Source: Pectobacterium carotovorum
GTDB lineage: Bacteria; Pseudomonadota; Gammaproteobacteria; Enterobacterales; Enterobacteriaceae
Reading direction: 5' to 3'
Assembly: GCF_900129615.1 (NCBI RefSeq)
Contig: NZ_FQWI01000001.1
Coordinates: 372,001 to 436,000 of the forward strand
DNA: 64,000 nt
Positions 7,553 through 43,461 of this stretch are shown piece by piece. Position numbers and translations under genes: made by a program. The notes beneath the pieces are model-generated. The model saw only the letters and a list, made by a program, of their open reading frames with translations. It was not told the DNA's origin and did no database searches. How positions within the stretch are numbered: position 1 is the first letter of the stretch; every line of letters starts with the position of its first letter.

Positions 7553-8485
7553 ATGTATCACCGTATGGCGCATGAATCTCAGCCTAATCCGCTGCTGCCG
7601 GGATATTCGTTCAACGCTTACCTTGTGGCTGGCATGACGCCGATTCTGGCAGAAGGGCCGCTCGACTTCTTTATCGATCGTCCCGATGGGATGAAAGGCT
7701 ACATCATTAACCTCACCATGAAAGGACAAGGTCAGGTCTTTGATGGTGATGAGACCTTTTTTTGTAATCCCGGTGACCTGCTGTTGTTCCCGCCGAAATC
7801 GAAGCATTTTTATGGTCGATCGCCGAGCAGCGATTGCTGGTATCACCGCTGGGTCTATTTTCGCCCGCGCGCCTACTGGGCCGACTGGCTGGAATGGCAT
7901 ACCAAAAGCAGCGGCATTGGTCGCATGAGCCTGCCGAATAACCAACTGCTGCTGGAATTCGACAGGCTATTTGCCAATATCGAGCAGACGCAGCGTTCCG
8001 GACGTCGTTTTTCCGAAGAGTTGGGTATGAATCTGCTGGAGCGTCTGTTGCTCCGCGCGATGGAAGAAGATCCGCAAAGCCCGCAGAAGATCATGGATCC
8101 ACGCGTGATAGAAGCCTGCCAGTTTATTACCAGCAATCTGGCCGGAGAGCTGCGTATTGATGAAGTGGCGCGGCACGTTTGCCTGTCGCCGTCGCGGCTG
8201 GCGCATCTGTTCCGTGAGCAGGTGGGCATTAATATTTTACGCTGGCGTGAAGATCAACGCGTGATTCGCGCCAAGCTGTTATTGCAGACAACGCAGGAGT
8301 CTATCGCCAACATTGGTCGCGTGGTGGGGTATGACGATCAGCTGTATTTCTCACGCGTGTTCCGTAAGCGGGTCGGCGTCAGCCCCAGCGATTTCCGTCG
8401 TCGCAGCAGTGAAATTAACTATCCGGCGGCCAAAACGCTGCCCGTGGCATGGGGAGAGCGGATGCCCAGCGCCGTGAGCGGCTAA
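7553..8485 (+). CDS. araC: Arabinose operon regulator AraC
   Basis: Arabinose-responsive activator/repressor of the ara genes. The 310-residue protein has an N-terminal cupin-like sugar-binding and dimerisation region (about residues 15-165; [27 protein letters not shown]) and a C-terminal double helix-turn-helix domain (about 185-290), including [22 protein letters not shown] and the AraC-family signature [20 protein letters not shown]. The start follows a strong GGAGG. In E. coli araC is divergent from araBAD; here it lies behind araFGH on the same strand. The tail is about 18 residues longer than E. coli AraC. Confidence 0.95.
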
Positions 8486-8598
8486 CCAATCAGAGCAGGC
8501 CAGATTTCCCGACGCTTATCCCTTCCTGCAATCTGCTGGATGACGGGTATATACTAAGTGAGAAATCACAAAGTCAAAATAAGCTAAGGGGAATCGTC

Positions 8599-9645
8599 AT
8601 GAGTGAGACCGTTCGTGTTGGGCTGCTGGGCTACGGTTATGCCAGTAAGACATTCCACGCGCCGTTAATTGCCGGTACGGCAGGTATGGAGCTGGTGGCT
8701 GTGTCCAGCAGCAGTGCTGAAAAAGTGCATGCAGATTGGGCAAATCTGCGAGTAGAGAAAGATCCTCAGGCGTTATTTAACGATCCCGATATTGACCTCA
8801 TTGTTATTCCTACCCCCAATGACACGCACTTCCCGCTGGCGAAACAGGCTCTGGAAGCGGGCAAGCATGTCATCGTCGATAAACCTTTTACAGTGACGTT
8901 GTCACAAGCATACGATCTGGGTGCGATTGCCGACCGTGTCGGAAAAATGCTTTCTGTTTTCCATAACCGTCGTTGGGACAGCGATTTTCTGACGCTGAAG
9001 CAACTGTTGGCGGCGGGAACGTTAGGAAATGTGGTCTATATGGAATCGCATTTCGATCGCTTCCGCCCCGAAGTGCGCCAGCGCTGGCGAGAAGACGGCA
9101 GCGAAGGCAGCGGGATTTGGTACGACCTTGGGCCGCACTTGCTGGATCAGGCGCTGGAGCTGTTTGGCTTACCGGTAGCGATTCAGGTGGATATGGCGCA
9201 GCTAAGGCCGGGCAGTAAGGCTACAGATTATTTCCACGCGACGCTGATTTACCCGCAACGTCGGGTTGTCCTGCACGCCAGCATGCTGGTGGCGGCGGCT
9301 TCTGCACGCTATACCGTGCATGGTACGCGCGGCAGCTTTGTCAAATACGGGCTCGACCCGCAGGAAGATCGTCTGAAAGCAGGTGAACGCCCACCGCTGG
9401 CCGACTGGGGACAAGATAAGCACGATGGCGTGCTGACGCTGTCGCGCGATGGTATAACGGCAGAACAAACCATCGCCACGATTCCGGGTAATTATCCGGC
9501 TTACTATGCGGCAGTGCGCGATGCGCTGCTCGGCAAGGGGGAAAACCCCGTCAGCGTGCATCAGGCGATTCAGGTGATGGAACTGATCGAGCTAGGGCTG
9601 CTTTCCCACGAGCAGAAAAAAGCCATCACGGTGAAAAATAGCTAG
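8599..9645 (+). CDS. ydgJ: Gfo/Idh/MocA-family NAD(P)-dependent oxidoreductase (YdgJ)
   Basis: Predicted NAD(P)-linked oxidoreductase of the Gfo/Idh/MocA family; the physiological substrate is unknown. The 348-residue protein closely resembles E. coli YdgJ. It begins with the dinucleotide-binding loop VGLLGYGYASKTFHAPL and has IPTPNDTHFPLA near residue 75, then the family EKP-like motif as VDKPFTVT near 95, whose Lys is catalytic in relatives. The C-terminal half is the substrate-binding alpha/beta domain (WYDLGPHLLDQAL). An upstream frame extension exists, but the ATG at 8599 follows AAGGGGA and gives the conserved N-terminus. It appears monocistronic. Confidence 0.92.
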   Translation: MSETVRVGLLGYGYASKTFHAPLIAGTAGMELVAVSSSSAEKVHADWANLRVEKDPQALFNDPDIDLIVIPTPNDTHFPLAKQALEAGKHVIVDKPFTVTLSQAYDLGAIADRVGKMLSVFHNRRWDSDFLTLKQLLAAGTLGNVVYMESHFDRFRPEVRQRWREDGSEGSGIWYDLGPHLLDQALELFGLPVAIQVDMAQLRPGSKATDYFHATLIYPQRRVVLHASMLVAAASARYTVHGTRGSFVKYGLDPQEDRLKAGERPPLADWGQDKHDGVLTLSRDGITAEQTIATIPGNYPAYYAAVRDALLGKGENPVSVHQAIQVMELIELGLLSHEQKKAITVKNS

Positions 9646-26123: not shown

Positions 26124-26744
26124 TTAAACGCAGGGCCCAGTGGCGCAGCCATACATCATAAAGAGTGGGAAAAGGATAACAGCCGGAACCATGAGGGGAG
26201 CAAGTAGCACTTCTTCGCCGGAGTTATCGCTGTTATTGATAACCACAGGAATGGGCTGCGGTAGGCGACCCTGTGTTGTCGGGCTGACCAGTGAGCCGTC
26301 TTTTTTACTAAATGTGCCATTCGCGCTAAACGTGACTTCACCTTTTCCCATTGCTGAAGGAATTCTCGCCGCGTAAAGCTCGCGTAAATCGACCAACTGC
26401 TCTTTGGTTAGTTGGCGTGTGTCGATCATGTTTTTATAGCTTGCATAGACTTGACCATTATTACGGAGAGAAAAATCGACCCTCACGCCCGTGATGATGT
26501 CTTTGTAATCACGATAAAACGCGTAATAGTCCTGATACTCTTTTTGAGCGCGGGCGTCAGAGAATTTATAAACGTAGGTAGCAGACTCCGCGATAAGTGT
26601 CCCGTTGTCATTGGTGATCGCCGTGATGTTATCCGTCTTCGGATAGGTGCTTGCGCACGAACTGACCAATAGACACATGATAAACACACCCCACAGTTTG
26701 ATGTGAAAAGGGCGTGAAAATAATCGAGCTAAATCCATATTCAT
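26124..26744 (-). CDS. Uncharacterised lipoprotein
   Basis: A 206-residue protein with an unusually long N-terminal part before the lipobox (FIMCLLVSSC|ASTYPK, Cys near residue 30). The C-terminal region contains a hydrophobic segment (LLAPLMVPAVILFPLFMMYG), so it may be anchored at both ends. The rest is hydrophilic, with a mixed alpha/beta middle (RAQKEYQDYYAFYRDYKD). I do not recognise the family; E. coli YnfC, a lipoprotein of similar map position, does not look alike. ATG 26744 is preferred because GGAG lies 9 nt upstream; an ATG at 26759 overlaps that site. Confidence 0.7.
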   Translation of the reverse strand: MNMDLARLFSRPFHIKLWGVFIMCLLVSSCASTYPKTDNITAITNDNGTLIAESATYVYKFSDARAQKEYQDYYAFYRDYKDIITGVRVDFSLRNNGQVYASYKNMIDTRQLTKEQLVDLRELYAARIPSAMGKGEVTFSANGTFSKKDGSLVSPTTQGRLPQPIPVVINNSDNSGEEVLLAPLMVPAVILFPLFMMYGCATGPCV

Positions 26745-26881
26745 CCTGATGCACTCCATTTGGGATAAAAATGCGTGTTGCTACGATATAGCGATAATCG
26801 TTGAGTGTAACGGTGATGTCACCTTCGGATACAGGCTAATTTGCTGCACCATTTTTTTGTACTACAAAGAGAAAAGGGGAA

Positions 26882-26903
26882 ACCCACGCCAGAAGGCGTG
26901 GGT
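26882..26903 (-). terminator. Intrinsic terminator after ynfB
   Basis: Stem ACCCACGCC (26882-26890), loop AGAA, GGCGTGGGT (26895-26903). On the minus strand it is followed by TTCCCCTTTTCTC, so it ends the ynfB transcript. Confidence 0.75.
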
Positions 26904-26909
26904 GAAAAA

Positions 26910-27260
26910 TCAGGGGGTAACGGGGCGGCCAGTACGACGATCGAGGCAGCGATCGGTGGTGTTTTCCCAGTAAGCATTGACGTTGTAGCTGGCGTTGCAT
27001 TTTTCACGCCCATCAATCGCTTTTTCAGTTTTATCGAATTCCTTCTCAACGCGGTTATTGACTTTATTACGCAATGAGCGGGTTGAATCCCATTGTTCCT
27101 TGCTTTGGCGCGCCGCTTCTTTTGATAACGCGCTGTCGCCGGAATCAACAATGATATGGCGCGTCTCTGCCAGTGCAGCAGGCTGCCAGGCAGCGGAAAC
27201 GATAACCAAAGAAAGCGGGATGAAGGCCCGAATCAAAGAAGAAAAAGAGTAGTGGTTCAT
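26910..27260 (-). CDS. ynfB: DUF1283 secreted protein YnfB
   Basis: A 116-residue periplasmic protein with a signal peptide (cleavage near AALA|ETRHI) and the DUF1283 domain: VDSGDSALSKEAARQSKEQW and a C-terminal YWENTTDRCLDRRTGRPVTP, matching E. coli YnfB. Two Cys (KCNAS and RCLDR) may form a disulphide. The function is unknown. In E. coli ynfB is followed by speG; here a lipoprotein gene follows instead. Confidence 0.88.
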   Translation of the reverse strand: MNHYSFSSLIRAFIPLSLVIVSAAWQPAALAETRHIIVDSGDSALSKEAARQSKEQWDSTRSLRNKVNNRVEKEFDKTEKAIDGREKCNASYNVNAYWENTTDRCLDRRTGRPVTP

Positions 27261-27476
27261 GTTTCACCTTGACAGAACGAATGATAAAAACAAACGCCGA
27301 TGCTGCAGAACGATAAAGCGCACGGCAAGCGATAGACAACAAAAGACGACCGCCGTTCCCTGTAACCCCCGCGCTTCGTGCAAAACGAAAGGTTACCTAT
27401 AGTTAGAAGTATACATCCTTCGCTTCAACTGTATCTCAATAACTTCGCCAGAGAGTGCTTTCCAAAGAGGAAAAAC

Positions 27477-27503
27477 ACCCTGCCAGCGAGCCGCTGGCAG
27501 GGT
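27477..27503 (-). terminator. Intrinsic terminator of the repeat-protein operon
   Basis: Stem ACCCTGCCAGC (27477-27487), loop GAGCC, GCTGGCAGGGT (27493-27503). On the minus strand it is followed by GTTTTTCC. It lies 36 bp after the stop of the small repeat protein. Confidence 0.85.
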
Positions 27504-27538
27504 GAGAGACTATGACCTTACGTTGTTCAATACGCTAA

Positions 27539-27745
27539 CTAATCGATATGTTGGGCCTCAATTTCTTTGCTATCAATTTCCGTTATGGTAATCGCGTTAT
27601 GCGCTTCAAAAGCACTATCGACAATTTTCTCCATCAAGTGACTCTCGGTCATCCTTAACGAGTTGGTTTTTAAATTAACGCTATTTTTGAAATTGATCTG
27701 TATGGTGTTATTACGCACGGTTTGGCTCATGTTTACCAGGCTCAT
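27539..27745 (-). CDS. Small protein equal to one unit of the adjacent repeat protein
   Basis: A 68-residue protein whose middle (NNTIQINFKNSVNLKTNSLRM followed by TESHLMEKIVDSAFEA) aligns by eye with a single repeat of the 505-aa protein encoded just upstream (pattern: polar-I-x-I-x6-V-x5-L-x-M-x3-hLhEhIDxA). It ends in a charged Glu/Asp-rich tail. It lies 17 nt after the stop of its large neighbour, on the same strand and before a strong terminator, so the two are co-transcribed. It has no signal peptide or hydrophobic helix and no function I can name. It could be a capping or assembly partner. Confidence 0.7.
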   Translation of the reverse strand: MSLVNMSQTVRNNTIQINFKNSVNLKTNSLRMTESHLMEKIVDSAFEAHNAITITEIDSKEIEAQHID

Positions 27746-27762
27746 TTCTTATCTCCATGTAT

Positions 27763-29280
27763 TTATAAAATTGGCTCAGGCGTATATTCAGCATCAATGG
27801 CCGTGGCCATTAGCACACTGTTTGTTAAGTCTGTTCTGGTAAGCGGGTTGACACAGGCACTATCCACTAAATCAATTCTCACTGAATTATTAATCAGGCT
27901 GGCACAATCAATAATCTCATCCAAGAGTTGACTATTGACCATTTTCAATGTGTTGTTGTTCACATTTGCGCTGCTGTTAATGTGTATGTTAATGCTTGAG
28001 TTATCACTTAATACCGCGCTATCAATAATTTCGTCAATGAGCTCTGCCTCATTCAAATTAAGCGTATCACCGATGACTTCGGCAGAGCGCTCCAGTCTTA
28101 TATCTATGGTTGACGTCGAGATATCGGTAGTATCGATGATTTCATCAATAAGTTCTCCTGCAATAATTTCTACCATGTTCGATTTAACACGAACAGACTC
28201 TCTGATAATAATATTTATTGCGCTTGATTTAATCGTTCCACTTGCGTCTATTAGCTCATCAATTAACTCTCCTTCATATATCCGAATAGTATCCGCATCG
28301 ACGTTAGCCAGTTTTTGTAAAGTAATTTCTATACTACTATCGTGAACGGATAGCGTATCAATGAGCTCATCGACCAACTCTCCCGAAATGACCTCCACCG
28401 TATTGGCTTTAACACAGGCTGACTCCTCGAAAACAATCGTTATATGGCTTGTGTTGATTGTGCCGCTGGCATCGATTAGTTCGTCAATTAACTCGCCTTC
28501 GTTTATTCTCACGTTATCTGCATAGACATTTGCGATATTGTGCAAGGTGATCTCTATGTTGCTATTGCTAATTGATTGAGTATCAATCAGTTCATCAATC
28601 AGCTCTCCTTCATATATTTTTACCGTGTGGGCATGTACCGTTGCGACATCCGACGCCTTTATGTAAATTTGGCTATTGGCAATATCAAGACAATCAAGCG
28701 TCTCGTTGAGTAGTTGCCCTGCATAGATGGTTAACTGTCCCTGGTTATTGAGACTCTTTACCTGAGCACTACTTCTGACCTCAATGTGCAGTTCCACATT
28801 ATCCAGCTGACTACCATTTTCAGGTATATTGATTAACTCCTCAATTAAACTTCCGCCATCAATGATTAATATACTGGAGGCATTTAACAGATTTACATTG
28901 GCCGAGTTTTCAATTTTTATACTGACAATAGCATGCTTGCCAATTGTGCCATTGATAATAGAGGCAATGAGCGAGGACTCCTCATCATCTGTTTCATTAA
29001 TCGGAGTAGTGGCTAGCGTTAAACTTCGGCTGACTTCCACATTAGCGCTATTAGAAATAGTCACATTAACTTTCGCACGTTCACCAACGTTTTCAATTAA
29101 TGGAGGGATTAATGCGTGCTTTATTTGTCGAAACTCAGCGATATCGACAACTTGGTTAGCGACGTCAGTTATGAAAATATCTAATTCTTCATCTGCATTC
29201 ACAGTGAGCGGTTGTTTAAAATCATAAGGCTGACGTTCGCTTTTATTTCGAGAGAAATACATTCCTTGAGCAGTGCTCAT
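27763..29280 (-). CDS. Repeat protein with about eleven GELIDELID-type units
   Basis: A 505-residue protein, unrecognised. After an N-terminal region of about 65 residues it consists of roughly eleven tandem units of 37-44 residues. Each unit has a beta-like stretch (SxIxIxLxxxAxV), a second short strand (xxTVxIxxG) and the motif ELIDELIDASG or a variant (ELVDELIDT, ELIDEIIDS, QLLDEIIDC). The strict period and alternating hydrophobics suggest a solenoid, such as a beta-helix, or a filament-forming protein. It has no signal peptide, and composition is acidic and very poor in aromatics. DNA is AT-rich compared with flanking core genes, suggesting transfer. It is the first gene of a two-gene unit with a one-repeat paralogue. 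Confidence 0.85.
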   Translation of the reverse strand: MSTAQGMYFSRNKSERQPYDFKQPLTVNADEELDIFITDVANQVVDIAEFRQIKHALIPPLIENVGERAKVNVTISNSANVEVSRSLTLATTPINETDDEESSLIASIINGTIGKHAIVSIKIENSANVNLLNASSILIIDGGSLIEELINIPENGSQLDNVELHIEVRSSAQVKSLNNQGQLTIYAGQLLNETLDCLDIANSQIYIKASDVATVHAHTVKIYEGELIDELIDTQSISNSNIEITLHNIANVYADNVRINEGELIDELIDASGTINTSHITIVFEESACVKANTVEVISGELVDELIDTLSVHDSSIEITLQKLANVDADTIRIYEGELIDELIDASGTIKSSAINIIIRESVRVKSNMVEIIAGELIDEIIDTTDISTSTIDIRLERSAEVIGDTLNLNEAELIDEIIDSAVLSDNSSINIHINSSANVNNNTLKMVNSQLLDEIIDCASLINNSVRIDLVDSACVNPLTRTDLTNSVLMATAIDAEYTPEPIL

Positions 29281-29585
29281 GACTGAATCCTATAATTAAA
29301 TGAATTGGGAATAGGTATGGCATTACGCCAATATAGCGTTTTATCTATATTGATTTCACGGTAATGCGTGGGGGGATAATACGTCCAGCTCATCTTTATT
29401 CATGTAAAGTGAATTGCAAATAGAAACAGACGAATTCATTAATTAATAATAAATGGCTCAGTGATTATATTTATCGGAATGTTTAATGTGATAATTATTT
29501 TCGACCAAATTAAAAGATGTGGTTGCCCAATAGAAAAGGGCATGAAACAGCGTTCATGCCCTTAATTTTTGTGTTTCGGTAATGA
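29281..29585. other. AT-rich intergenic region upstream of the repeat protein
   Basis: No supported ORF. It should hold the promoter of the repeat-protein operon (reading left) and contains the ydfG terminator at its right end. Composition is clearly more AT-rich than the core genes. Confidence 0.5.
29536..29563 (-). terminator. Intrinsic terminator after ydfG
   Basis: An 11-bp stem, AAGGGCATGAA (29536-29546) with TTCATGCCCTT (29553-29563). It is flanked by T-rich sequence on both strands, 23 bp after the ydfG stop. Confidence 0.85.
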
Positions 29586-30335
29586 TTAACCTTCGCGATG
29601 TACACTTAGCCCAGCAAAAGATTGGCTGACCGGCATCATTTCCAGCGTGTTGATGTTGACGTGTGCTGGCAGCGTGGCAACCCAGAAAACAGCTTCAGAC
29701 ACATCTTCAGCCGTCAGCGGCGTTGTGTTGTCATAGGTTTTACTGACTTTGTCGTCGTTACCTTTGAAACGCACGGCCGAGAACTCGGTTCCACCGACCA
29801 GACCCGGTTCGATATTCGTTACGCGGATTCGGGTACCAGACAGATCGGCACGTAATCCCAGGCTAAACTGCTGTACGAACGCCTTGCTGGCACCGTACAC
29901 GTTACCGCCCGCATAAGGCCAGTTTCCTGCGGTAGAACCGATGTTGATGACGTGACCGATATTACGCTCCACCATAGCTGGCAGCAGCGCGCGTGTCATG
30001 AACACCAGCCCTTTGTTGTTGGTATCGATCATATTTTCCCAATCGTCTACCGATGCTTTATGCGCAGGCTCCAGACCCAGCGCCAGCCCGGCGTTGTTCA
30101 CCAGCACATCAATCGTCCGCCATTCGGCTGGCAGGGTGGCAACGGCCTGTTCAATCGCCTGACGGTCGCGCACATCCAGTTTTAACGGATACAGCGCATC
30201 GCCCAATTCCGCTTTTAGCGCATCCAGACGTTCCTGACGGCGGCCGGTCGCGATCACTTTATGACCCGCACTAATAAATTTACGTGTAATTGACTCACCA
30301 AACCCAGCCGTTGCACCGGTAACAAAAATAATCAT
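29586..30335 (-). CDS. ydfG: NADP-dependent 3-hydroxy acid dehydrogenase YdfG
   Basis: Short-chain dehydrogenase oxidising L-allo-threonine, L-serine and related 3-hydroxy acids, and acting on malonic semialdehyde in the uracil-degradation context. The 249 residues closely match E. coli YdfG: cofactor loop VTGATAGFGESITRKF (6-21), RR for NADP preference near residue 33, NNAGLALG near 82 and the catalytic Ser-Tyr-Lys set in NIGSTAG (near 133) and YGASKAF (near 147). It is a core gene lying between two accessory stretches. Confidence 0.95.
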   Translation of the reverse strand: MIIFVTGATAGFGESITRKFISAGHKVIATGRRQERLDALKAELGDALYPLKLDVRDRQAIEQAVATLPAEWRTIDVLVNNAGLALGLEPAHKASVDDWENMIDTNNKGLVFMTRALLPAMVERNIGHVINIGSTAGNWPYAGGNVYGASKAFVQQFSLGLRADLSGTRIRVTNIEPGLVGGTEFSAVRFKGNDDKVSKTYDNTTPLTAEDVSEAVFWVATLPAHVNINTLEMMPVSQSFAGLSVHREG

Positions 30336-30478
30336 GCTCTTATTTCTCCCTGACCGTTTTCATATTTTGCTTGTGCCTGATATCACTATAAATAATGAAA
30401 GGCATGCGATCATTTAGCCGCGCAATTCCCCGTGGGTCAAGCGTTACTCCGGTTTCAACGATGTGGTTTGGGAAGAAT

Positions 30479-30499
30479 CGCCCCTCAGAACGAGGGGCG
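30479..30499 (-). terminator. Probable terminator after the HisC-like gene
   Basis: Stem CGCCCCTC (30479-30486), loop AGAAC, GAGGGGCG (30492-30499). On the minus strand the sequence after it is CGATTCTTCCC, a weak T-run, 43 bp past the stop of the aminotransferase gene. Confidence 0.55.
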
Positions 30500-30541
30500 G
30501 ATCTCGAGCCATAGCGAGTGCAAGAGCGGTATGACGGAGGA

Positions 30542-31729
30542 TTAAATCCAGTTTTTGTTACGGAATTCACGCATGGTATCCGCAACCCACTGCATTTCCT
30601 GCGGTGTCCCCAACGAAATGCGACACCAGTTATCCGCAGGAGGAAACGCACGGCCAATCAGTACACCCGCGTCTGCCATATGCTTTTGGTAATCCTTGAG
30701 CGGCACGACCAATTGGTGGAAAACAAAGTTTCCCTCCGACGGTAAGTACGGCAATTTCAGGTCATCGAGCGCTTTCAGCAGGATTTGGCGCGACACATCA
30801 TTACTCTTTTTGCTGTAAGTAATGAATGCCGAGTCGTCCATAGATGCTAATGCGGCATCCACGCCGCTAAAGTTGATTTTTTCGCCCGCGACATACTTTC
30901 CCATCAACGCAATGACGTTGGGATGGGCGACGGCATACCCAACGCGCATACCGGCCATCGCGTGTATTTTGGAGAAGGTTTTGAGCAAAATAATGTTCTC
31001 TGCGCCTTGGGTAATCATCGGCGAAATAGAACGAAAACGTGGATCGTTGACAAACTCGGCGTAGGCCTCGTCAACGATAAACATCGTATTGGCTGGCTTG
31101 CTGGCAATCCACGGTTCAATTACATCCGCAGGCGTAATCGTGCCCGTTGGGTTATTCGGATTGACCAGATAAACGATGGAAGGGCCGCTGTAACCAGCAA
31201 CGGCCGCTTTTAGCCCTTCAATATCGAACGCCCAATTGTCGAGCATTTTGACTTTCGTGACTTTAATGCCGGCAATTTTGGCAAAATGTTCGCCGTCGCC
31301 ATAGGTTAATTCAGGAATCACCAGTTGTGCATTCAGCGATGCGTAGGCTTCAATTGCCGCCCGGATGCCTTCGGACGATCCGGCCGTCAACAAGATGGAA
31401 GGGGCCTCGACCTGATGATGCGCCGCCAGCTTATCGCCAAGCAGTAAAATTTCATTCTTTGCATAGCGGTTGGCTTTCACGACGGCCTCACGCGCGGCGG
31501 CCTGCGCCTTGGGCGACATACCCAGTGGGTTTTCATTAAAGTTAATACGGATTGGATTAGCGGCCGACGGTGCGGTAAATGCAGCATTCTCAGGCTGTGT
31601 CTCGGCAAAAACCCGCGAGCTTAACCCTGTCGTTACCGCCGCCGTTCCCAGCAGGGCGCCAGAAAGTTTTAATAATGCTCTGCGTTTCGGGTTTAACACG
31701 TCGCTTTCATTGATTAAAAAATTCATCAA
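30542..31729 (-). CDS. Exported HisC-like PLP aminotransferase
   Basis: A 395-residue fold-type I aminotransferase, closest in pattern to histidinol-phosphate aminotransferases: NFNENPLGMSPKA near residue 68, YLVNPNNPTGTI near 188, IVDEAYAEF near 217 and the PLP lysine in LKTFSKIHAMAGMRVGYA near 252. Unusually, it begins with a twin-arginine-type leader, NPKRRALLKLSGALLGTAAV, ending near VFA|ETQ, so it is probably folded with its cofactor and exported to the periplasm by Tat. Cytosolic HisC lacks this. The substrate is unknown; it is not in a his operon. Confidence 0.85.
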   Translation of the reverse strand: MMNFLINESDVLNPKRRALLKLSGALLGTAAVTTGLSSRVFAETQPENAAFTAPSAANPIRINFNENPLGMSPKAQAAAREAVVKANRYAKNEILLLGDKLAAHHQVEAPSILLTAGSSEGIRAAIEAYASLNAQLVIPELTYGDGEHFAKIAGIKVTKVKMLDNWAFDIEGLKAAVAGYSGPSIVYLVNPNNPTGTITPADVIEPWIASKPANTMFIVDEAYAEFVNDPRFRSISPMITQGAENIILLKTFSKIHAMAGMRVGYAVAHPNVIALMGKYVAGEKINFSGVDAALASMDDSAFITYSKKSNDVSRQILLKALDDLKLPYLPSEGNFVFHQLVVPLKDYQKHMADAGVLIGRAFPPADNWCRISLGTPQEMQWVADTMREFRNKNWI

Positions 31730-32046: not shown

Positions 32047-33171
32047 TTAACTAAATCCAGTAACGATAGACTTAGTTATTAACTTACTAACATCTTTAGT
32101 AAAATCGTTGGGGTATATATCTTGATATATTGATGAAAATAAATCACTGACCTCATTACTTAGTATATCAAGTGCTTCATTTTTTTCATCATTATTAAAA
32201 ACGGCCCTTGTAGCATCAGGAACTAATAATGAATCTCGTAGGTGTTTGTCATCTATTAATTTTTCAAGCCATATATGAAGTCGTTCAACAAGTAATAATG
32301 GAAGGTATTCAGAGCAATTAAGCTTTTCATCCATATGATATGCTATACTCGTTAAGTCGAAGCTAGAAAGTTTTTTAGCTTTATTTTTTTTATAGTCAGG
32401 CATATCAGCCACTATGTTTTTCATCAGCCTAACTATTTTTTTTAAATTCCCAGAATAATACTGGTCTTTATCTTCAACCTTTTTTATATGAAGGAAAGGT
32501 CTGTTCTCTATAAATTTATGCTCTGATTTGTCATATATTTTAACAATTCTATCATGTTGTTGTCTTGAGCGTTGATAGTCATGAGTATCAAACCAGCACC
32601 CTGGAACTATATCCACTTTTCTGGCAAGACTACCACCACTAATTGATATTGATTTTCTATTAGAACAATTGACGTTAGCCTGATGATATCTACTCGTAAG
32701 TTTTTCCTCTGAAACTAAGCGAATTTCCTTTACTTGAGTAATCATATCCCGCTTATCAGGAGCATCTATATAACTTGTAGATGATAAAATTGGCTGTTGG
32801 ACTAAAAGAACATCCTTTTTTAATATCAGCATATCTACATCTGAATGACCTTCAATATGAATATCAAGTGCCACAGAACCTTGTAGTTTAAACTCAGTGC
32901 TTATGCCTGATGTATTAAGCATGCTAATAAGAGTATTGGCAACACGCTCCCCCTCTTGAATTGACACATTCGTCGATGTCGGATTTACAGGAGCCATAGC
33001 ACCAATCACATATTTTATTGAATCACTCTCTCTCACATTTTCATAAAACTCGTTAGGCCGCGAATCATAAAAAGATGAAAAAGATTCATTACCGCTATTC
33101 AATGCAAAAAGTTGTGCAGATCCTTGACGTCTATCTTTGAGTTTTTTTAATCGGTCGCCAAAATTAATCAT
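32047..33171 (-). CDS. CBASS CD-NTase (cGAS/DncV-like nucleotidyltransferase)
   Basis: A 374-residue nucleotidyltransferase with the CD-NTase active site: G98-S99 in LQGSVALD, D111 and D113 in HSDVDML (GS-x11-DxD), and a third acidic residue D187 in KVDIVPG. It would make a cyclic oligonucleotide on phage infection that switches on the neighbouring effector. Its ATG overlaps the stop of the Cap15-like gene by one base (TAATG), indicating translational coupling. No Cap2/Cap3 or HORMA/TRIP13 genes are adjacent, so this is a minimal type I CBASS layout. The clade (CdnB, CdnE or other) and product are not determined. AT-rich coding suggests transfer. Confidence 0.85.
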   Translation of the reverse strand: MINFGDRLKKLKDRRQGSAQLFALNSGNESFSSFYDSRPNEFYENVRESDSIKYVIGAMAPVNPTSTNVSIQEGERVANTLISMLNTSGISTEFKLQGSVALDIHIEGHSDVDMLILKKDVLLVQQPILSSTSYIDAPDKRDMITQVKEIRLVSEEKLTSRYHQANVNCSNRKSISISGGSLARKVDIVPGCWFDTHDYQRSRQQHDRIVKIYDKSEHKFIENRPFLHIKKVEDKDQYYSGNLKKIVRLMKNIVADMPDYKKNKAKKLSSFDLTSIAYHMDEKLNCSEYLPLLLVERLHIWLEKLIDDKHLRDSLLVPDATRAVFNNDEKNEALDILSNEVSDLFSSIYQDIYPNDFTKDVSKLITKSIVTGFS

Positions 33172-33770
33172 TATTCACCACGCGTCAAATACATTTTACC
33201 GAAAGTACGTCTGCCATTGCTGTTAAAATACGCAGCCTCACCAGATTTTAGATTCTTATCAAAAAGGACTTCACAGTAACCTCTGTGTGAGTTTAATTCA
33301 TGGTACTGTGATACATCAGGAGAATTAGCATAACTATAGTGCAATATCCATCCTCCACGTGTGCCCGGTTTTTTAGCGAGAGTGGCAGTATAGCTCCCGC
33401 TGGAGCTTTGTTTTGTTTTCAGATTTATGCTAATTCCTTCCCAAGTTTGTTCTATATCGATCTCAGCATCCCAATTGTACTTAACAACACCATCTTCTTC
33501 GGACAATGTTTCCCCTTTTATTGACCAGCAGCCATTGAGATCGGGTATTTTAAAGAACGGAATTTTCCAAGCATAATGATTAAAAAGCCAATGTAATAGA
33601 AAGTAAACAAGTGCTGTTGAAATAGTGGCGCTGGCCATAAAGCTAAAACCATCGACCTGTCTAATCCATAGAATAATACTTGAGATGAAACCAGTAATGA
33701 CAACAGAAGCGGTACCAAGATAGCGGCCGATCGTTGTTCGACTATGACCAAAAATTGCGTAATCGTGCAT
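33171..33770 (-). CDS. Cap15-like CBASS membrane effector
   Basis: A 199-residue protein with two transmembrane helices (about residues 18-36 and 44-64) and a beta-strand-rich C-terminal domain (about 75-199) beginning IPDLNGCWSIKGE and continuing with alternating strands (DAEIDIEQTWEGISINLKT). This architecture matches Cap15 effectors, whose beta-barrel binds the cyclic nucleotide and whose oligomerised helices disrupt the inner membrane to abort infection. It is directly followed by, and overlaps, the CD-NTase gene, which is the standard CBASS pairing. The assignment rests on architecture, local motif and context rather than alignment. Confidence 0.8.
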   Translation of the reverse strand: MHDYAIFGHSRTTIGRYLGTASVVITGFISSIILWIRQVDGFSFMASATISTALVYFLLHWLFNHYAWKIPFFKIPDLNGCWSIKGETLSEEDGVVKYNWDAEIDIEQTWEGISINLKTKQSSSGSYTATLAKKPGTRGGWILHYSYANSPDVSQYHELNSHRGYCEVLFDKNLKSGEAAYFNSNGRRTFGKMYLTRGE

Positions 33771-34414: not shown

Positions 34415-36253
34415 TTACGCTTTCGACTGTATGCGATCGCGGTACCGATTGAGTTCTTCCAGCTTGGCCGATGCGGCCTGCTTACGTTTGAAGGCAATGT
34501 CCTCGATCTGGCTTGCCGAGGTAGTGAGGTAGGATTTAAGCTCATCTCCGGTCAGGTACGTGCCGCTCAATTTATTCAGCTTGCTCCAACCGTCTTTGAA
34601 GTTATCCACAAACTTGGCTGACACGATGCCAACGGCCTGCCATTCAGCCGTTTGAGTGATGAAGAAATCATTCGTGTTCCGTTTGATGCGTTTCGTGAAA
34701 CTTTTCGTCGGCTGATTCCGATCGAGCGCTTTCTGGAGTAGCTCTGACTGCTCGGTCGAACTTTCTACGACGCTCTGCATGAAATTCGCAAACGTTTTGA
34801 AGAAAAAAGAGATTTCGACAATAATTTCACGCATCCGCTTCAGCGCTTTGAGGCTCAGCCCCAGAGACTGGATCGCCAGTTGGATGGTTTCTTCTTCAGT
34901 CCGCTGTCCCTTCAGTAACGCATTGATCTTTACCAATTCCGCCGCTTGTGTACGTTTCTCTTTTTCATAAGCCTCGACCTTTTCCAGCATTTTCATCTGC
35001 ATGTCGCGGAGACCCGTCGCCTGTTTTTCTTGTTTCTCTGCCATTTTTCCCATGTTATCGCCAAGGGAATCCAGCGCGGCATTTAAGGCTTTCAGCGCGG
35101 TTTCTGCCGCCGAAATCTTGCTGACCTTTTCTTTGATTTCTGCACTGTTGTCTTTGATTCTATTATCGAGAGATTCCAGCTGCACCGCTTTCGTGTCTGC
35201 ATCGATCTGTGCGTCTTCTTCAATTTTTTCCTTTTCGGCCGTCAGCTCCTGATTCTTCTTCTCCAGCTCAGCTTTTTCGCGCTCAGCGGTCGTTTTTTCG
35301 GTACGTTTGTCAGCAATTTTTCCCTTAGTTTCTATTGCCTTCGCGGTTGTGTCGTTCTCTTCTGTCGCAGTTTCCGCATTGATCAACTGTCGTGCCGTAG
35401 AGTTGACTGAGGCGGCAACCAGCGATGTGCCTCCCGTGGCGACCCCTGTGATGCCAGCGGTAATTGCCGGAACCATGGATGAAATCATCTGTGCGCCGAC
35501 GCTCACGATAGACATAATAAAAGCGCGGTCCTCGGCCGTTTCTGCTTGCGATTTATATTCGTTCGCCATTTTTTCATACTTGGCGATATCGTTTTGCAGG
35601 TCTTGTACCAGGCTGTCCAGTTTTTCGCGTTGTGCGTTGTTCTCGGCAATTTCTTTTTCTATTTTTTCCTTATTTTTCAAACGTGAAGATAGCGCCAGTT
35701 CTCCCTGCTGTGTCGTCTTGGTGGTATCGTCAATAATGCTATCGTAGGTATTTGCGATCTTTGTCAAATCGGCACTGACCCGCTCAGCCCGTTTCTTGAT
35801 TTCTTTAGCCAGATCCACTAAATCCTCGCCAATAAAATCTTGCAGATCCTGAGGATTATTGCTGTCACGGGCCTCCGCCCAATCACCGAACAGGGTGCGT
35901 AATAATTTGATAATCCGTTCAGCATCCGTCGACGCGCCGCGCATTTTCTGTTCGCTTTCCTGCTGAGCCGCAATCAGGCGACTCATCAACTTATCAATCT
36001 CAACCCTGATCTTTCCTTCTTCCTGGGGCGTTGTGTTGTAGGCGATATAAAGCAAATCGATAGCGTTATCGGTGTCTTCCTTGGATCGGGAAACGTCATA
36101 GGTGCCCTCAATCCTCCTGATGTAATCCTCAACCAGGGGGTGGTTGACATCAGGCAACGCCACGTTATTACTGTCCAGAATTTCCTCGACTTGGGCGTCA
36201 ATACGTTTATTGACATCGAATTCGATACTGACAATTTGATTTTCAGCAGCCAT
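34415..36253 (-). CDS. Large coiled-coil protein with a central membrane hairpin (toxin-like)
   Basis: A 612-residue, charged, almost wholly helical protein. Coiled-coil stretches flank one hydrophobic stretch at about residues 243-285 (AFIMSIVSVGAQMISSMVP, then AITAGITGVATGGTSLVAAS). A long helical bundle with one hidden hydrophobic hairpin is the layout of alpha-helical pore-forming toxins of the ClyA, Nhe/Hbl and XaxAB type. No signal peptide. I recognise no named homologue, so toxin function is inference. The start at 36253 (MAAENQIVS) follows GAGGAG; an ATG at 36307 overlaps the upstream gene. It lies 28 nt behind a secreted coiled-coil partner gene in the same operon. Confidence 0.75.
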   Translation of the reverse strand: MAAENQIVSIEFDVNKRIDAQVEEILDSNNVALPDVNHPLVEDYIRRIEGTYDVSRSKEDTDNAIDLLYIAYNTTPQEEGKIRVEIDKLMSRLIAAQQESEQKMRGASTDAERIIKLLRTLFGDWAEARDSNNPQDLQDFIGEDLVDLAKEIKKRAERVSADLTKIANTYDSIIDDTTKTTQQGELALSSRLKNKEKIEKEIAENNAQREKLDSLVQDLQNDIAKYEKMANEYKSQAETAEDRAFIMSIVSVGAQMISSMVPAITAGITGVATGGTSLVAASVNSTARQLINAETATEENDTTAKAIETKGKIADKRTEKTTAEREKAELEKKNQELTAEKEKIEEDAQIDADTKAVQLESLDNRIKDNSAEIKEKVSKISAAETALKALNAALDSLGDNMGKMAEKQEKQATGLRDMQMKMLEKVEAYEKEKRTQAAELVKINALLKGQRTEEETIQLAIQSLGLSLKALKRMREIIVEISFFFKTFANFMQSVVESSTEQSELLQKALDRNQPTKSFTKRIKRNTNDFFITQTAEWQAVGIVSAKFVDNFKDGWSKLNKLSGTYLTGDELKSYLTTSASQIEDIAFKRKQAASAKLEELNRYRDRIQSKA

Positions 36254-36281
36254 GTGTATCTCCTCAGATTCAGCAAAAAAG

Positions 36282-37172
36282 TTAGTTTGTGCAGATACGC
36301 TCGCCACCCGGAAGTTGCAGGCCGTTTATGTCGAGCAATTCTTGAGACTTAAGCAGTAAAATATTCAACGATTCAGACTCCTGGCGCAGGCGAGTCACAA
36401 TTAACCGGCGGTCTGAAGTCGGATCGAGACCGTTAAGCTCCGTAATAGAGTCGGTAAATCTAACGAGTAGGGTGGCGTTATCCTGTTTGAGCTTTCTGAT
36501 CTCGGTCAGTGATGCTTTGATCACGCCGATCTTGTTTTCGACTGCTGCAATATCAGCCCTGTTTTGCTCAGACTTCGCCAGGTTTTCCTTTAACTGCGCT
36601 TCAGCCTGATTATTTTCACTGCGCGCGGCCTCGTATCGTTCTTTAGAGCCAGCGGCCCGCATGTCGATTTCCTGCCTTGCGTTATCCAGCCTGCGCAAAT
36701 CCCCGTTCAGGCCAGTAATTTCTCCGGCAAAGTCACACATGAAACCCAAAAAGCCAAACTGACGTTTGCAATCGTCAAGTGCAGCCTCTCTTGCACGAAT
36801 ATGATGCCTGATTTCCTGCATCTGGTTTTCCAGATCACCTCGTTCCATCAATGCCATCTCGAGGCGGTTGGAAAACTCCTTAGCGGCATAGGTTGCACGC
36901 TCCAGTTCGGTAGCCAATTTCTGTTTCTGGCTGTGCAGTTCACCCGCCGTTTCCTGTAACCGATGACTATTCGCCTCAAGCTCAGCATCTTTATCGGCGT
37001 AGCACTGTCCTTTAGCGACCAGCGCTGTATCAATACGCTGCGCGTTGGCGACCTGCGCATTGAATGCTTCAATTTCGGATGGCGTCAGCGTTTGAGTTGC
37101 CGCTGACAGAGAAAGAGATGTAGTAAAAAATATGGCGAGAAAAGCAACCCAGAGGTAGTTCAAGCGCAGCAT
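36282..37172 (-). CDS. Secreted coiled-coil protein, partner of the toxin-like gene
   Basis: A 296-residue protein with an N-terminal signal peptide (LNYLWVAFLAIFFTTSLSLS, cleavage near SAAT) and a long run of heptad-like helices (DAELEANSHRLQETAGELHS, ENQMQEIRHHIRAREAALDD). Four Cys are visible, including DDCKRQFGFLGFMCDF. It is the first gene of a two-gene operon, with GGGAGAA before the ATG. It may be a partner, inhibitor or delivery component for the downstream hairpin protein. No known family recognised. Confidence 0.7.
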   Translation of the reverse strand: MLRLNYLWVAFLAIFFTTSLSLSAATQTLTPSEIEAFNAQVANAQRIDTALVAKGQCYADKDAELEANSHRLQETAGELHSQKQKLATELERATYAAKEFSNRLEMALMERGDLENQMQEIRHHIRAREAALDDCKRQFGFLGFMCDFAGEITGLNGDLRRLDNARQEIDMRAAGSKERYEAARSENNQAEAQLKENLAKSEQNRADIAAVENKIGVIKASLTEIRKLKQDNATLLVRFTDSITELNGLDPTSDRRLIVTRLRQESESLNILLLKSQELLDINGLQLPGGERICTN

Positions 37173-43098: not shown

Positions 43099-43461
43099 GT
43101 AACGTCCAGTAGTTTCAGGTTTTTGTGTTCAGGATTCGGCGTGTAGCAAGGAAGGTTACAAGAAAGCGGGGCGAGCGGCAATGATTCAAGCCGCGACATC
43201 ATCGCAATGGGTATGAACCAGCGTACTGTTTTAATTGCAAATCATTATCGATATGAAGTAAGTGTACTTATACCTAACGTGAGAAACGAGAGGGAAGTCA
43301 GAGATTACTAACGTATTGATTTATCGCAACGTGGATGTGGCTTATGAACTTATTTATCATTACAGTTGATTTAACATAATATACATTATGCGAACCAATG
43401 AAGACACAGGCAGGAACTGGCCGTTCCGTTGAACAAATCCCCACATCCACAAAACACCTAA
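43099..43461. other. Intergenic region with two inverted repeats
   Basis: No supported gene in this 363-bp stretch between the VF530 and NTF2-like genes. It contains the perfect palindrome CATAAT-ATAC-ATTATG (43375-43390) and a spaced inverted repeat, GTGGATGTGG (43331-43340) with CCACATCCAC (43441-43450). A 60-codon minus-strand frame here looks random. Confidence 0.55.

Follow-up and report, generated by a model that had tools for sequence, protein, structure and literature searches.

The 64,000-nucleotide (nt) stretch of Pectobacterium carotovorum DNA analysed here (contig NZ_FQWI01000001.1, positions 372,001 to 436,000; hereafter the window) carries on its minus strand a two-gene cassette encoding an acidic repeat protein of 505 amino acids (aa) and a 68-aa paralogue of its repeat (Table 1). 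Only these two open reading frames (ORFs) were plausible as genes in the ORF list of the cassette, the frame of the longer one extends just 3 codons 5' of its ATG (508 aa), and no Rfam match was found at 26500-31000. The insert has 39.1% GC against 50.9% for the window, in agreement with the AT-rich stretch described in an earlier note made from the letters of this DNA. Sigma-70-like matches in the region number 10 against 9.1 expected, no higher than chance. The terminator that the same note had assigned to the stretch has a counterpart in a terminator-like hairpin with a T-run, the longest stem of the terminator scan, whereas the scan total (5 against 3.8 expected) is not above chance.

Table 1. 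Features of the repeat-protein cassette (positions in the window)
Feature	Position	Strand	Basis
505-aa acidic repeat ORF	27763..29280	-	ORF list
68-aa paralogue ORF spanning roughly 1.5 units; homologous to 505-aa protein residues 427-474	27539..27745	-	
Gap of 17 nt between the ORFs; GGAG ends 7 nt 5' of the 68-aa ATG (ribosome-binding-site-like, by reading)	27746..27762	-	
Intrinsic-terminator-like hairpin 3' of the 68-aa ORF: 13 pairs, 10 GC, T-run	27504-27476	-	
Best sigma-70-like promoter match 5' of the 505-aa ORF, 10/12	29464..29492	-	
Inserted cassette, approximate ends, ~2.1 kb	27430..29528	.	Comparison with congeners, gaps by hand
Seven regular 37/38-aa units, residues 197-458	27907..28692	-	
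Less regular N-terminal part, residues 1-196, degenerate units; alignment with Paenibacillus proteins begins near residue 270 of the latter	28693..29280	-	

Autocorrelation of the 505-aa sequence peaked at a shift of 75 aa (0.67), with a lesser value of 0.10 for 37 aa (best of 200 shuffles, -0.23). There are nine copies of the core motif [LI][ILVM][DEN][EA][LIVTA][ILV][DNE], with start positions from residue 145 to 452, and seven of the copies each close a strict unit; these units are 37, 37, 38, 37, 38, 37 and 38 aa long and have the pattern S-x-I-x-I-x-L-xxx-A-x-V-xxxx-V-x-I-xx-G-E-L-I-D-E-L-I-D. Less regular units lie on both sides of these seven, and further degenerate copies were seen by eye near residues 57, 107 and 489, so that the earlier count of about eleven units is fair, with the amendment that the strongest period is that of two units (75 aa). 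In eight core-aligned rows the consensus of the core is [EQ]-L-[LIV]-[DN]-E-x-x-D, and its four acidic positions are acidic in 6, 7, 8 and 8 of the rows. The protein has an isoelectric point (pI) of 4.17 and a net charge of -55 (83 D+E against 28 K+R), and by inspection it has no hydrophobic N-terminal (Sec) signal. Recent duplication of units, for which the earlier note had suggested a unit-by-unit DNA alignment, is ruled out, because DNA identity among the seven units is only 54-70% and synonymous sites are saturated: the proportions of synonymous (pS) and nonsynonymous (pN) differences were 0.83 and 0.19 between residues 234-308 and 309-383, and 0.85 and 0.29 for a 140-residue stretch from residue 204 at a shift of 75. 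We read the units as old repeats maintained by selection on the protein.

Residues 12-59 of the 68-aa protein align without gaps to the longer protein (17/48 identical; score 93, where 1000 shuffles gave a mean of 39, a standard deviation of 5.8 and at most 63), and the ORF matches a family profile, A1, at an E-value (E) of 5.8e-6 over profile positions 466-528 of 554; A1 was built from six rows, the 505-aa protein among them. The small protein thus does align with a unit, and the homology claimed in the earlier note stands, while its description as a single unit gives way to about one and a half, the matched segment being one unit and the first half of the next. Over the 48 aligned codons pS is 0.92 (saturated) and pN 0.37; the 68-aa frame has therefore been under constraint, which argues for a real protein, although the comparison covers no more than 48 codons.

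No match over curated cut-offs was found for the 505-aa protein in Pfam or NCBIfam, and nothing convincing for the repeat protein in PHROGs, PADLOC or PDB sequences, the last of which gave empty results; in the libraries searched there was no significant match to a named solenoid or adhesin family, and the family is still as unrecognised as the earlier note had it. Two Pfam rows below 0.002, SFV1 coat protein (E 0.0004; 21.1 of 27 bits) and KOW2_Spt5 (E 0.0015; 18.8 of 28.9 bits), fell short of their cut-offs and were taken as compositional chance. A literature text search for the motif string 'gelide' gave, among the matches listed, no title about a protein repeat.

Relatives were located by an exact short-peptide pattern scan of genome_contigs, which returned 60 stretches and may miss more distant members; the family counts below should be taken as minimum numbers. 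Five of the 60 stretches encode relatives with 33-37% identity, four of them near full-length in Paenibacillus and one partial in Brevibacillus. In tblastn with the 505-aa protein the four Paenibacillus loci gave E-values of 2e-71 to 8e-74 over residues 5 to 492-505, and the partial fifth 2e-28, values that are relative to the candidate stretches; identity in the A1 alignment is 31-37%. The Paenibacillus ORFs (L002-L005; 834, 847, 870 and 846 aa) have a signal-peptide-like N-terminus, align with the window protein from roughly their residue 270 onward, and vary in core number (9 in L002, 10 in L004). Two of the four share an upstream lipoprotein-like gene (L002 5773-6711, L004 6078-6947), the single flank similarity that the four loci showed within 4 kb. 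The Brevibacillus group has an intact copy, L039, with an open frame of 846 aa, and fragmentary copies in G345 (L006, ~7990-8777) and G1498 (G1498:C1:3127028-3127147); by reading, L006 and L039 share a downstream MFS gene.

In genome samples that overlap one another, whole-genome profile searches found the family in 4/394 genomes of the family of the Paenibacillus genome G341, in 3/39 from the Brevibacillus G345 family (an intact copy and two fragments) and in 1/398 of a phylum sample, namely the sample's centre. Around itself the window genome was the sole match, both with the single protein as query (1/59 relatives, 1/25 genus) and with the profile (1/295 family, 1/247 order, 1/369 class). 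The 505-aa protein belongs to an unnamed, sparsely found family whose predicted fold is of a known class, and its two-gene arrangement was seen once. Origin of the window protein as a truncated fusion was rejected, the window holding no convincing tblastn match to the Paenibacillus N-terminal domain (best E 0.63).

The 68-aa ORF could in principle be a functionless, decaying remnant of a longer repeat protein. Such fragments do exist in the family, as the copies in G345 and G1498 demonstrate, and in six other genomes no such partner was found by profile; the ORF nevertheless has its own start and GGAG site and differs from the 505-aa ORF in the constrained manner given above, and we regard a remnant as somewhat unlikely.

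The cassette lies between a DUF1283 (ynfB-like) gene and an SDR (ydfG-like) gene. These flanks lie next to each other, 34-63 bp apart by manual calculation of the gaps, in 22 of 24 other genomes of the genus, from which the insert is absent, as expected of the accessory position given in the earlier note. Of the remaining two congeners, G019 is rearranged and G010 has 2,756 bp at the site, with no match to the 505-aa protein. The G010 insert encodes an unrelated 782-aa protein (L024 960-3308, minus strand) with an OspG-type kinase domain (E 8.3e-9), residues 140-478 of which resemble a Pantoea plasmid protein (25.5%, 9e-12). The four Paenibacillus genes are more AT-rich than the fetched loci around them (31-33% against 37-42% GC), the intact Brevibacillus-group copy and the Paenibacillus faecalis copy have 90.6% DNA identity, and in the 4 kb flanking each side of the four Paenibacillus loci shared DNA is confined to one pair. 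Site absence, low GC, the 90.6% copy and the unshared flanks all agree with, and would fit, a gene that moves alone; no mobile-element gene was noticed beside the cassette in the ORF list of 24-34 kb. A phage or plasmid origin was rejected, as no match was found in phages and plasmids and none was confirmed in viral contigs with two queries. The cassette had no DNA match in E. coli genomes.

Since the same intergenic site takes an OspG-type kinase-domain protein in G010, it might be one that receives effector genes, with the 505-aa protein an effector of the genome's own Hrp-like type III secretion system (T3SS). The genome encodes an export-gate protein (TIGR01399, over the NCBIfam cut-off, at G000:C15:569752-571764; an SctV-like protein exceeds the family cut-off in 19/25 genus genomes), in a cluster (L037, L038; G000:C15:553000-590000) that we read, without a search, as Hrp-type from its HrpN-like, HrpL-like and HrpS-like ORFs; the lack of a Sec signal by inspection and the AT-rich, orphan character of the cassette would suit an effector. 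The hrp box has the consensus GGAACC-N15/16-CCACNNA. Within the cluster, the N15 spacing gave one perfect and three one-mismatch boxes, three of these four at operon starts by reading, and 8 matches in total against 4.1 expected (12/200 shuffles reach 8). Yet no box with up to 2 mismatches lies 5' of the cassette at 29281-29600, the next same-strand match upstream (30429-30456, 2 mismatches) precedes the ydfG-like gene, the window totals (14 and 14 against 12.5 and 12.4 expected) are those of chance, and the Paenibacillus relatives have signal-peptide-like starts. An HrpL-controlled effector was rejected on the lack of a box 5' of the cassette, T3SS export under other control may occur, and an effector role as a whole is decidedly unlikely. 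The effector-like gene of G010 likewise has no hrp box at L024 3309-3619 with up to 3 mismatches, its nearest same-strand upstream matches lying inside the next gene; one of two scans of L024 gave 13 matches against 7.1 expected.

The AlphaFold2 models are confident and all-beta, that of the 505-aa protein having one very short helical stretch, and they lend support to the solenoid-like fold suggested in the earlier note. A horizontally acquired two-gene cassette, made up of an acidic beta-helix rod and a docking or capping 68-aa partner and non-enzymatic, is tentatively proposed as the reading we favour. The 505-aa protein would be a rigid, strongly acidic, flattened two-sheet beta-helix in which each 37/38-aa unit makes about two coils; its flatness, its handedness and the number of coils are taken from matched folds. 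About a dozen stacked two-coil units would give a rod of ~11-13 nm (our estimate, at ~4.8 Å per coil). This rod is most likely non-enzymatic and would display a ladder of conserved acids (E, D, E, D in each GELIDELID); the four acids of each unit may line one face, pointing outward, and may form a binding site for cations or for a basic partner.

The 68-aa protein would be a three-coil partner of the same repeat, and is read as an end piece because it is a free one-and-a-half-unit copy made beside the rod. It would most likely dock by strand pairing on an exposed rod end, by analogy with the end-to-end pairing of SufD, and once docked may cap the rod or set its length. Natural beta-solenoids, according to one paper (PMC7034853), have caps or distortions that block end-to-end joining.

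Several observations weigh against the rod-and-cap proposal. The alignments given to AlphaFold2 had six rows, and Foldseek returned no match with E <= 0.001. VIA, which re-aligns only Foldseek's top chains, listed no Suf entry in its 50 rows for the whole model; with the repeat part, the lead of the Suf entries over other beta-helices (13.1 and below) is modest, at Z values that VIA cautions may reflect a common arrangement. A separate one-unit partner was not found by profile in six Paenibacillus and Brevibacillus genomes (five and G1514), and around the window genome the gene pair was seen in one genome only. The constraint on the 68-aa ORF rests on 48 codons, and when units were compared a third time, at a shift of 37 that left them partly out of register, pS was 0.73 and pN 0.50.

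What the analysis adds is a compact, regular, predicted beta-helix family, nameless in the libraries searched and patchy across two phyla, in which unit number varies and one member is accompanied by a natural candidate for an end piece. Should the two proteins bind each other, they would offer a simple natural system in which to study the control of beta-solenoid ends and the avoidance of runaway polymerisation. The wider idea of a mobile rod-and-cap system common to an enterobacterium and Bacillota, in which a variable-unit acidic beta-helix has its length or end assembly set by a split-off 1.5-unit protein, is improbable.

Elsewhere in the window, AT-rich DNA at 32047-33770 (minus strand) holds a pair of the cyclic oligonucleotide-based antiphage signalling system (CBASS) type, an oligonucleotide cyclase (PADLOC E 4.9e-138) and a Cap15 effector with two transmembrane segments (Pfam E 4e-37). 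Beside it, at 34415-37172 (minus strand), lie ORFs of 630 and 296 aa with a 26-bp overlap as listed, coiled-coil-rich by eye and possibly secreted or pore-forming. A dif-like site at 43369-43396 (minus strand) has one mismatch to the E. coli dif sequence, and because of it the window probably spans the chromosome terminus.

Among the closest known systems is the beta-helix core of SufB, SufD and SmsB, with differences in sequence and setting. No SufBD row was found for the 505-aa protein in the Pfam scan to E 10, hhalign probability was 0.5% against E. coli SufD and 0.1% against SufB, and homology beyond fold to SufB/SufD or to CsgA was rejected as unsupported by hhalign, a weak test here since single E. 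coli sequences put one sequence on one side. The helical end domains of SufB/SufD are not seen in the 505-aa model, and the cassette has no gene for a SufC-like ATPase partner.

Curli and bactofilins raise the alternative that the 505-aa protein polymerises end to end as a functional-amyloid, curli-like or bactofilin-like filament, with the 68-aa protein as nucleator or terminator. The structural match to curlin CsgA, however, has a root-mean-square deviation of 9.6 Å, hhalign sees no relation to E. coli CsgA (probability 0.2%), and there is no curlin row in the Pfam scan. No curli export genes were apparent among the ORFs listed for 24-46 kb, the protein has no Sec signal by inspection, and its net charge should disfavour side-by-side packing. 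Bactofilins gave no Pfam row up to E 10; they are also absent from the 50 rows that VIA lists for each model, drawn from Foldseek's top chains only, an absence that carries no weight. A filament is judged unlikely.

Pentapeptide-repeat proteins, whose repeat motif is A(D/N)LXX, suggest instead that the 505-aa protein may act in the cytoplasm as a decoy against a nucleic-acid-binding enzyme, for instance by mimicking DNA as MfpA and Qnr do. The pI and the regular acidic positions would suit such a role, Foldseek lists MfpA, AlbG and EfsQnr for the repeat part, though short of significance, and CBASS-type genes are nearby. Those rows, on the other hand, have E 0.47 or worse, no pentapeptide row appeared in the Pfam scan, the PDB sequence searches were empty, the relatives look secreted by their N-termini, and the sole PADLOC row is a 23-residue AbiEi match (E 0.0084); a decoy is highly doubtful.

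The closest comparison in sequence is with the Paenibacillus and Brevibacillus proteins, which differ in having a signal-peptide-like start and an N-terminal domain of ~240 aa ahead of 8-10 pattern cores. That domain has no significant Pfam match; by tblastn it was found in seven Pseudoalteromonas plasmid records (best 1e-16; an eighth record, from Streptomyces, has E 0.2), and it resembles Pseudoalteromonas hypothetical proteins of 245 and 237 aa in two annotated cases (e.g. WP_237115291.1). The window protein lacks it. What the window protein shares with Paenibacillus L002-L005 is 33-37% identity over nearly all of its 505 aa, the GELIDE units and the acidic composition.
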